Source: Salinirubrum litoreum (GTDB lineage: Archaea; Halobacteriota; Halobacteria; Halobacteriales; Haloferacaceae). From it: a stretch of 64,000 bases of DNA. The notes under the pieces were generated by a model. It made no database searches and was not told the origin of the DNA. It saw only the letters and a program-made list of their open reading frames with translations. Positions 23,125 through 45,278 of this stretch are shown here, piece by piece. A program made the position numbers and the translations under genes. How positions within the stretch are numbered: position 1 is the first letter of the stretch; each line of letters opens with the position of its first letter. The DNA lies in assembly GCF_020567425.1 (NCBI RefSeq), contig NZ_JAJCVJ010000003.1:372001-436000 (forward strand), written 5' to 3'.

Positions 23125-23174
23125 GTCAGTTACCCACGACTGAAGTCGTGGGCTTCCTCCTTGCATCTCTGTGA
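23125..23174. mobile_element. Solo ~50-bp IS1341-end hairpin element (copy A)
   Basis: The hairpin CCCACGAC-TGAA-GTCGTGGG (23133-23152) is followed by the tail CTTCCTCCTTGCATCTCTG and ends in TGTGA. Read on the minus strand it runs TCAC, then AGAGATGC..., then the hairpin, then GGGTAACTGAC. Copy B (41917-41966) differs at one base of 50. The hairpin matches the right end and the tail matches the left end of the complete TnpB element at 35636-37029, so it looks like an internal-deletion derivative. It sits between dppA and the M28 gene without disrupting either. Confidence 0.8.
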
Positions 23175-35103: not shown

Positions 35104-35635
35104 CGGGGCCGCTCGTTCCTCACAAGCGGACGGCACCGGGGAATCATACAAGCCGACGGCTGTCGATACATCGGAGACGGGATGCTGCTCGAGGGCCTCG
35201 GCTTCCTGATCGGGCTCGGACTCCTCCTGGTCGGTGCCGACAGAACTGTCGACGCTGCCGCCGAGTTGGCACTCTACTACGGGATCTCGGCGTTCTTCAT
35301 CGGCGTGACCGTCGTGTCGATCGGCACGTCAATCCCCGAGATGACGACGTCGGTCTACGCGGCACTCTACGACGCCGGCGACCTGCTGGTGGGGAACATC
35401 GTCGGCTCGGAGACGGCACAGATCACCCTGGCCATCGGCGTCGTCGCACTGCTCTCACAGATCGAGGCCGAGCGACGGAACGTCCTCGTCTACGGCGGCG
35501 CGATGGTTCTGGCGATGGTGATCATGCTCCTCGTGCTCGAAGACGGCGTCCTCATCCGGTCCGAGGGCTTCCTGATGATGCTCGCGTACGTCGCCTTCGT
35601 CCACGACCTCTACTCCCACGAGGGCGGCGAGGAGG

Positions 35636-36889
<1,254 letters not shown>

Positions 36890-37274
36890 CTGTGACTTTA
36901 CGTGCGGAGCGTTGCTTTATAAATCTACGACTGACGTAGGGGAGTCGGACTGCCATCGCTCGTGGTTTGATTCGAGGCTTGTCAGATTCCTCTCACGGCT
37001 AAAGCCGTGGGCTTCCTCCTTGCATCTGTGTGAAGAACTCGGTATCGTCACCGAAGTCGACCCCGAGTCCGAGGACTGACACCGACCGGCCGGCCAGGGC
37101 GATGCTCGACCGTGCTCGTTCGCGCGGCGTCGAGGCGACCGGGTGACCGGGGTCGGGGACCAGGGGGACCGTGTCCGGAGCGTCCCCAGCAACGTCCGAG
37201 GCCGGCGACAGGTACAGGCGACTCCGAGGGATGGACATCGTTTTAGGGCCGACCCGACACGCTTGTCGTGTCAC

Positions 37275-41916: not shown

Positions 41917-41966
41917 GTCAGTTACCCACGACTGAAGTCGTGGGCTTCATCCTTGCATCTCTGTGA
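41917..41966. mobile_element. Solo ~50-bp IS1341-end hairpin element (copy B)
   Basis: This copy differs from copy A (23125-23174) by a single base: 49 of 50 match. The hairpin CCCACGAC-TGAA-GTCGTGGG is at 41925-41944. The minus-strand reading has TTCAC before AGAGATGC, the same site pattern as the full element. It sits downstream of YihY and 16 bases from the HtpX stop, so it could also end transcription there. Confidence 0.8.
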
Positions 41967-43076: not shown

Positions 43077-44006
43077 GTGACCGACAGTATCGCCGCACCC
43101 TCGCTCGCCACGCTGACCGACTACGAGGGGGTGACGTTCGACGTGGACGGGGCGGACGGGGTCGGCCTCCGACTGGACGAGGTGGAGCGCCGCGCGGTGG
43201 ACGACGACTGGGAACGGTTCTCGCTGTGGTTCAGTTCCGACGACGAGGTGTCACAGGATCTGTACCGACTGACCGACCCGCAGGGCGAGGCGTTCGACGT
43301 GACCATCGCACCGACGAGACGGTTCGACGGGAGTCCCGACACGCACACGTACGAGGCCATCTTCAGCCGTCCAGCGTCGGACGCCGAGATCACGGGGCCC
43401 AAAGCCGCACTCGACGCCGGGATGCACCTGCCGAACGCGACGAGTGAGAGTCAGAACGTCCCTCGCCGGGCCGAGTTCATCACGGGACAGGTCGTGCTGT
43501 TCGGTGGACCCTTCGCGGTCGCGGGGTTCTACGAGTGTTCGGGCCTCCCGCTCCAAATCAGCCAGCACTCGGTTCTCTACTCCGTCATCGGGACGACCTA
43601 CGGCGGTAACGGAAGAGTGACCTACCGACTTCCGGACTTGAAGGGGCGGGTGCCGCTCCACAACGACCGCCACCATCAGGTGGGGAGCGCGGGCGGCACG
43701 GAGACTGTCACGCTGACGAAGAACCAGTTGGCGAGGCACCACCATTACGCGACGGACATCGATCTCCCGGTGAGTGAGGCCGAGGGAACCGAACAGGACC
43801 CGAGCGGCAACCTGCTGACGACGGACCCGCACGGCGGGGGACGTGGCGCGAAGACGATCTACGCCGATGGGAACGAGAGTGCCGGCGCGATGCAGGTGGA
43901 GGGCACCACCGACGACACCGGACGCGGAGACGAACACACGAACATGCAACCGTACCTCTCGGTGAGCTACCAGATCTGTATGGACGGGATATTCCCCACG
44001 CGGTGA
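43077..44006 (+). CDS. DUF6916-like plus phage tail-collar protein (copy 1)
   Basis: This 309-residue protein starts at GTG (43077), supported by alignment with the ATG of copy 2. The N-terminal ~100 residues (LTDYEGVTFDVDGADGVGLR...RFSLWFSSDDEV) resemble DUF6916. The C-terminal half has the tail-collar/microcystin-dependent motif: GQVVLFGGPFAVAGFYECSG, then SVLYSVIGTTYGGNGRVTYR and LPDLKGRVPLH. The fusion appears with its duplicate at 44236. No other phage gene is nearby, and no signal peptide is present. Its function is unknown. Confidence 0.8.
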   Translation: MTDSIAAPSLATLTDYEGVTFDVDGADGVGLRLDEVERRAVDDDWERFSLWFSSDDEVSQDLYRLTDPQGEAFDVTIAPTRRFDGSPDTHTYEAIFSRPASDAEITGPKAALDAGMHLPNATSESQNVPRRAEFITGQVVLFGGPFAVAGFYECSGLPLQISQHSVLYSVIGTTYGGNGRVTYRLPDLKGRVPLHNDRHHQVGSAGGTETVTLTKNQLARHHHYATDIDLPVSEAEGTEQDPSGNLLTTDPHGGGRGAKTIYADGNESAGAMQVEGTTDDTGRGDEHTNMQPYLSVSYQICMDGIFPTR

Positions 44007-44159
44007 CACTGGAGCCCTCTCACCCGGCGGGTCGCAGCAACGGGAGCGAACGACGGGGTCCTTCGCGACGCGACCGTCCCTCCCGCGTCCGTCGTGGTGG
44101 TGAAAGTGCCACCGTCGATGTTCAGTTAATTCTACAGTTTCGCAGGTGAGACAATATCT

Positions 44160-44235
44160 CAGCGGTGACTACATATCAGCCATCGGTGTAGTCGAAGACG
44201 ATGTACGCGACAGCACACGCTGGAGTCGATGTCCG
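44160..44235 (+). repeat. 76-nt leader copy 2 (duplicated with the tail-collar gene)
   Basis: This matches the first leader in length and in CAGCGGTG, GTGTAGTC, GATGTAC and CTGGAGT; it has diverged elsewhere. It ends at the ATG of the second gene, in the same position as the GTG of the first. Confidence 0.8.
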
Positions 44236-45174
44236 ATGACCGACATCGTCGACGCACCGTCACTGAGCACACTGACGGAGTACGAGGGTGAGACCTTCGA
44301 CGTCGAGAGCGACGCGGGGGTCGGTCTCCGACTGGACGAGGTCGACCGCCGGCGGGTCGGCGACGACTGGGAGGCGTTCTCGCTGTGGTTCTCCTCGGAC
44401 GACGAGTCGGTTCTGCCGCAGGGCCACTACCGGTTCGCCGCGCCGGACGGAGAGGAGTTCGACGTGACCGTCGCGCCGACCCACTCGGCGACGGCGGCCC
44501 CCGAGACACACACATACGAGGCCGTCTTCGACCGCCCGGCACCGGACGGCGAGACGCCCGACGTGAGCGCGGCGCTCGCGGCGGGACACCACCTCCCGGC
44601 GGCGGGTGTCGAACCGCAGAGTGCCACCGTCGCGGGTGACGAGTACGTCGGCCAGGTGATCCTGTTCGGCGGAGCGCGGACGATCCAGGGGTTCTACGAG
44701 TGTGACGGCGCGCTGGTCTCGATCCAACAGCTCTCGGCACTGTACAGTCTCATCGGGACGAAGTACGGCGGCGACGGGACGTCGACCTTCGGGCTTCCGA
44801 ACCTCTCCGGGCGCGTCCCGATGCACCGGAGCAGCCAGCACGGCATCGGAAGCGCGGTCGGGTCCGCAGAGACTCGACTCGCCATCGACAACGTGCCGGT
44901 CCACAGTCACGGGGCGACGAATCTCAGCGTTCCGGTGAGTGACGTGTCCGGTTCGGAACCGGACCCGGACGGGAACGTCCTGACGACGGACCCACACGGC
45001 GGCGGTCGCGGAGCGAAGACCATCTACACCCCCGAAAACGAGATGAGCGGGTCGATGGTGGTCGCGGGCGAGACCGATCAGGTCGGCATGGGTGCGGCGT
45101 TCAACAACGTGCAACCCTCGCTGGCGATGAACTACGAGATGTGCGTCACCGGTATCTACCCCGGGACAAACTGA
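44236..45174 (+). CDS. DUF6916-like plus phage tail-collar protein (copy 2)
   Basis: This 312-residue paralog (by eye, about half identical) has the same two-part architecture: N-terminal DUF6916-like region (LTEYEGETFDVESDAGVGLR) and collar half (GQVILFGGARTIQGFYECDG; ALYSLIGTKYGGDGTSTFG; LPNLSGRVPMH). The central loop differs strongly, suggesting changed ligand contacts. The start is the ATG at 44236. The two genes form a tandem pair with no promoter-free linker between them, so each may have its own transcript. Confidence 0.8.
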   Translation: MTDIVDAPSLSTLTEYEGETFDVESDAGVGLRLDEVDRRRVGDDWEAFSLWFSSDDESVLPQGHYRFAAPDGEEFDVTVAPTHSATAAPETHTYEAVFDRPAPDGETPDVSAALAAGHHLPAAGVEPQSATVAGDEYVGQVILFGGARTIQGFYECDGALVSIQQLSALYSLIGTKYGGDGTSTFGLPNLSGRVPMHRSSQHGIGSAVGSAETRLAIDNVPVHSHGATNLSVPVSDVSGSEPDPDGNVLTTDPHGGGRGAKTIYTPENEMSGSMVVAGETDQVGMGAAFNNVQPSLAMNYEMCVTGIYPGTN

Positions 45175-45226: not shown

Positions 45227-45278
45227 GTGAAATCGACCCACTCCCGAAGTCGCGGGCTTCCTCATTGCATCTGTGTGA
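45227..45278. mobile_element. Solo ~50-bp IS1341-end hairpin element (copy C, degenerate)
   Basis: The hairpin CCCACTCC-CGAA-GTCGCGGG is imperfect (five of eight pairs). The left flank GAAATCGACCCAC resembles the right end of the full element (GTCATCGACCCAC), and the tail CTTCCTCATTGCATCTGTG resembles its left end. This hybrid character supports the idea that solo copies are internal deletions that joined the two ends. It lies between the tail-collar gene and the MATE gene end. Confidence 0.72.

Follow-up and report, generated by a model that had tools for sequence, protein, structure and literature searches.

The window analysed here, a 64,000 nucleotide stretch of Salinirubrum litoreum (contig NZ_JAJCVJ010000003.1, positions 372,001 to 436,000), contains three solo copies of a short hairpin unit. 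These are best explained, with a probability of roughly 80%, as terminal-only IS200/IS605 elements (PATEs) which were formed by deletion between the two hairpins of a parent element and which insert 3' of TCAC. A preliminary description, made from the window alone, had proposed that the solos fuse both ends of an IS1341-type tnpB element through an internal deletion. This proposal is supported by the element ends found in the same genome, by the combination of a left guide with a right tail, and by chimeric hairpins, and the solos almost certainly arose by such an end fusion.

Read on the minus strand, which is the tnpB direction, the unit is TCAC-AGAGATGCAAGGAG-GAAG-(CCCACGAC TTCA GTCGTGGG)-TAAC-TGAC, with the hairpin in parentheses. 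Copy A (minus strand) matches the consensus unit at 50/50 positions. Its inserted 46 bp (23125..23170, AGAG...CTGAC), the boundaries of which were assigned as at the empty site known for a sister solo (L067), follow a TCAC target tetranucleotide that is kept at the left (23171..23174). TCAC is present in nearly all solos, the flank beyond it being unrelated, and also in the empty site of L067. The guide GAAG (23153..23156), which is of the left-end type and covaries with TCAC, is located 5' of the hairpin CCCACGAC-TTCA-GTCGTGGG (23133..23152; DNA fold of -9.1 kcal/mol, z -2.7), and this hairpin is the same as that of autonomous TnpA elements. The right cleavage site TGAC (23125..23128) bounds nearly all of 45 solos on the right. 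Copy B (41917..41966, minus strand; 46 bp at 41917-41962 plus TCAC at 41963-41966) matches the consensus at 49/50 positions, shares the hairpin of copy A, and lies 15 bp beyond the stop codon of an M48 peptidase gene. The positions of A and B and the single base of 50 that separates them are as previously described. Chance matches to the unit are not expected (none in 100 shuffles).

Copy C (minus strand, 39/50) was said to share the hairpin and tail of the other two. It is real, but its best register is 45229..45278 rather than 45227-45278, and its hairpin has been lost through decay (folded DNA of -3.1 kcal/mol, compared with -9.1 for A and B). Copy C has the end subtype of the window's complete element and does join both of its ends, as had been claimed, with a tail GGGTCGATTTC that resembles the complete element's right end GGGTCGATGAC and a left tip TCACACAG that resembles its left end. 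The three solos and the complete element share one orientation in the window; this uniformity does not extend to the whole genome, where two further solos (C3:23858 and C3:551571) have the opposite orientation. A reading of the strand bias (four of four in the window) as a replication signal was dropped, orientations being mixed across the genome. The stretch from 43077 to 45174 contains two adjacent paralogues encoding Phage Tail Collar and DUF6916 domains; the two are 71-74% alike over parts of their length.

The complete IS1341-type element (35635..37029, minus strand) carries tnpB only, as an intact gene of 417 aa (35636..36889, minus strand; PF07282 1.5e-23, PF01385 8.8e-9). Its left end (36992..37033, minus strand) consists of a TCAC target, a GAAG guide, and a hairpin, and its right end (35635..35666, minus strand) consists of a CAAG guide, a hairpin, and a TGAC cleavage site. 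These ends match the two halves of the solos, and they are the only further matches of at least 30/50 to the unit in the window (37/50 at 36984-37033 and 35/50 at 35635-35684). The right-end hairpin lies within the tnpB reading frame, which ends at a TGA stop codon inside the TGAC cleavage site (35635-35638).

Solos match the left ends of full elements in their own genome over approximately their first 30 bases and the right ends over approximately their last 18, and their single hairpin is preceded by a guide of the left-end type and followed by a right-end tail. Solos in other genomes likewise carry the element's ends. One stem pair of the hairpin is informative: it is A..T in all 35 of 35 full right ends and G..C in many full left ends, and 8 of 52 solos have an odd pair at this position, either G..T (seven solos, combining the left arm of a left end with the right arm of a right end) or A..C (one solo, the reverse combination). 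Neither combination occurs in any full end. Judging from these sequences, the chimeric hairpins mark a junction within the hairpin, at which the unit passes from left end to right end, and they support a hairpin-to-hairpin deletion. On this reading, the parent carried tnpB only and had a near-identical hairpin at either end; repeat-mediated deletion of the stretch between the hairpins would leave the left cleavage site with its guide, a single hairpin, and the right cleavage site. A comparison of 47 solo and 35 full left ends revealed no site with a full element in one genome and a solo in another; the only common site is full in both genomes. L197 and L201 are full elements that occupy the same position in two species, with left flanks that are 93% identical, and represent an old shared insertion that has kept its core.

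The insertion point is defined by the L067 solo, found in a related genus, which falls within the stop codon of a gene called a histidine kinase on the basis of its sequence. More than 10 congeners carry this gene without the solo, and several of them read TCAC followed directly by the right flank. The insert is exactly 46 bp, located after the retained TCAC, and nothing is duplicated. The protein ends in FEFKTS* in the congeners and in FEFKTS-SVTHD* with the solo, whose hairpin supplies the stop codon. This is the only fully clean empty site found; we did not detect clean empty sites for copies A-C or the other resident solos when joined flanks were searched in related genera, where the flanking genes were found but the intergenic DNA was too diverged. 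In IS608 insertion also occurs 3' of a retained tetranucleotide (PMC5934647), and a 46-bp insertion after a retained TCAC is the chemistry of IS200/IS605. Elements of this family integrate, without target duplication, 3' of TCAC, which is selected by pairing with the guide GAAG. The solos have the features of PATEs: both element ends and a near-terminal palindrome within a non-coding length, no terminal inverted repeats or target duplication, insertion 3' of a specific left tetranucleotide (TCAC, shared by nearly all solos and the L067 empty sites), and derivation from a parent by between-hairpin deletion (left guide with right tail, chimeric hairpins). The absence of terminal inverted repeats and target duplication rules out a MITE.

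Each IS608 hairpin is preceded on its 5' side by a tetranucleotide that pairs with the cleavage site, A+16 pairing with T-3 and A+17 with T-4 (PMC5934647). We tallied guides against cleavage sites in element ends that were gathered using solo-shaped queries, so that the counts are a biased sample, and they refer to sequences, many of them related, rather than to independent events: left ends comprised GAAG/TCAC (18) and AAAG/TTAC (17), and right ends comprised CAAG/TGAC (27) and AAAG/TTAC (6), the exceptions being mainly GAAG with TGAC (6) or with TTAC (2). Left ends follow the IS608 guide rule, as do most right ends, and the right-end rule is not strict. Some of the GAAG exceptions may be solos with an unrecognised left site. 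Three seemingly full right ends from one genome (L280, L293, and L294 of G009) have GAAG before TTAC or TGAC and break the rule. A matching double change, TCAT with GAAA, is present in two solos from different genera (L086 and L221, the latter inferred from its matched string). One TnpA element of the S. litoreum genome has the exact IS608 pairs TTAC/AAAG and TCAA/GAAT.

Solos have kept the left guide and lost the right one. By guide, left site, and right site, 31 are GAAG/TCAC/TGAC and nine are GAAG/TCAC/TTAC. Loss of the right guide means that the right site faces an unmatched guide, with a G-G mismatch for TGAC and a G-T wobble for TTAC. The GAAG-TGAC mismatch carried by most solos would be expected to impede their excision.

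Across the 4.06-Mb assembly, a search identified five clear solos in addition to copy C, and five full elements of the group (tnpB loci E1-E5). Copies A and B, C2:702226, and C3:23858 are mutually alike at 49-50 of 50 positions, and C3:551571 is a more diverged solo (45/50). The window's complete element is E2 and has the subtype of copy C (TCACACAG / GGGTCGAT), while the tips of E1 (TCACAGAG / GGGTAACTGAC) have the subtype of the four closely matching solos, although the E1 hairpin loops differ. Over 1.4 kb, E2, E3, and E4 are 94% identical, and E1 and E5 are 81% identical. The four most alike copies in the genome (98-100%) are therefore solos only, while the full copies are 81-94% alike and intact. 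This suggests that the four solos are probably the youngest copies.

Across the family, represented by one genome per species, the unit has a match in 127 of 170 genomes when full ends and solos are pooled. Solos, collected by alignment, occur with the same boundaries in many species. We examined 45 loci, picked mostly because the whole unit was covered; these are 48-51 bp long, nearly all start with TCAC and end with TGAC, and their flanks are unrelated. A pattern scan that allowed two mismatches found matches in 82 of the 170 genomes, and among the approximately 146 matches listed, the guide is CAAG in about 68 (full right ends) and GAAG in about 60 (mostly solos). An exact-pattern scan over named genome contigs returned three stretches only. 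A further subtype with the right site TTAC is represented by about eight solos in one genome. A copy identical to the unit (50/50) is present at an unrelated site in another genus.

The solos could have spread in two ways. They could be scars that never move, in which case a full IS1341-type element would have inserted at each site and its core would later have been lost by recombination or replication slippage between the hairpins; alternatively, the remnants could move, in which case a Y1 transposase acting in trans would spread the 46-bp units to new sites. Immobile scars have a precedent in Haloquadratum, where an element is complete in one strain and core-deleted in the other (PMC3119063), and a unit that has kept the left guide and lacks the right one fits a scar better than a unit selected for movement. 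These core deletions and the guide mismatch speak against mobility, as does the absence of a matching TnpA from the S. litoreum genome. Scars fit less well with three findings: the most alike copies in this genome are all solos, the intact full copies being more diverged; a 99%-complete genome holds six solos but, at up to two mismatches, lacks full elements of their left-end subtype; and none of the more than 10 congeners has a full element at the L067 site. The most alike copies, the six-solo genome, and the 50/50 copy in another genus favour mobility. We regard immobile scars as a serious possibility but the less probable of the two; the findings tip slightly, short of proof, towards remnants that are themselves mobile. 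The fuller claim, that the 46-bp single-hairpin unit is a transposon moved in trans, among the smallest such elements, which uses one guide for two different cleavage sites and outnumbers full tnpB parents of the same subtype in some genomes, stands at about even odds.

Candidate mobilisers are the TnpA elements of related genomes that have the same left-end hairpin, matched by the hairpin only. These TnpA+TnpB elements (TnpA 83-100% identical) have left ends of the form TTAC...AAAG-[hairpin], and most carry exactly the hairpin of the solos. We did not detect a TnpA of this group in the S. litoreum genome (best 43% identity), so a mobiliser would have been lost or transient. A mobile remnant would need tolerance of one mismatch between guide and right site, or a borrowed right end. 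The genome has three resident Y1 genes, of which two are cut by contig ends; the third (L016), the only one readable in full, is part of a TnpA+TnpB element. The genome's own TnpA was rejected as a direct mobiliser on the basis of the element that is readable in full, which differs in its hairpin and right tip. A similar TnpA sequence is present at the end of contig C1 (1707883-1708140, with an internal TGA) and at the start of contig C2 (1-345), and the assembly probably breaks at IS copies.

It is very improbable that the solos are REP-like palindromes which were spread by a domesticated TnpA (TnpA_REP/RAYT) and which do not derive from tnpB elements. They do resemble REP sequences in having a single hairpin with a 5' tetranucleotide and in their dispersed copies, and TnpA_REP acts on REP hairpins (PMC8266576), but the tetranucleotide is GAAG instead of GTAG, copy numbers are low, the solo is composed of both ends of a tnpB element resident in the genome, and insertion follows the rule of IS200/IS605. 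Membership of the REP/REPIN class, which is defined by GTAG and a TnpA_REP gene, was rejected, given the GAAG motif and the location of the L016 Y1 gene within a TnpA+TnpB element. Still less probable is a conserved regulatory structure (terminator, attenuator, or RNA element), for although the copies are intergenic and A and B form a stable hairpin, the regions beside the orthologous A, B, and C genes in related genera lack the solo (best 23-26 of 50, which is the background level), an Rfam scan of the window gave no match, the L067 copy sits in a stop codon, and copy C has lost its hairpin.

Models of IS200/IS605 transposition require two hairpins, so that each transposase monomer has a hairpin with a separate guide. 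Should 46-bp fusions move with a single hairpin and a single guide, these models would need a second mode, based on two paired copies or on a borrowed right end, which would be close to how REP sequences may spread. The sites and the guide code make mobility of the short form testable with one transposase and short oligonucleotides. The most alike copies also lack TnpB, which would be odd if the element needed its own TnpB to persist in the genome.

The solos are of the same kind as the terminal-only forms of Haloquadratum, and such forms are common in haloarchaea and already described; the preliminary description was correct that the type is known there. Dyall-Smith et al. (2011, PMC3119063) reported 52-bp terminal-only forms of HqIRS46 and ISHwa23 derived from repeat-mediated deletion, observed the terminal-only form in all six strain-specific insertions of ISHwa23, and proposed that short forms may be mobile. 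We did not find a later treatment of haloarchaeal short forms in a literature search. Like the present solos, the Haloquadratum PATEs are about 50 bp long, have both outer tips, no gene, and no target duplication, arose by deletion between the hairpins of palindrome-ended IS605-type or IS1341-type elements, and occupy several new sites in the short form only; they differ in element subtype and host, the 2011 forms being compared by their description rather than by the supplementary sequences. New relative to that study (PMC3119063) are the definition of where the elements insert, their guide code, the loss of the right guide, the chimeric hairpins, and the distribution across the family. IS608 (ISHp608, IS200/IS605) shares with the solos the guide-to-cleavage-site rule, insertion 3' of a retained tetranucleotide, and subterminal hairpins, but is a full-length element with two hairpins and two guides, and in the family of the solos the pairs are TCAC with GAAG at the left and TGAC with CAAG at the right. 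REP sequences and REPtrons are similar in that they are small single hairpins with a guide-like tetranucleotide on which a relative of Y1 transposases acts; they differ in having GTAG, hundreds of copies, and a domesticated TnpA, and are not fused ends of a tnpB element.
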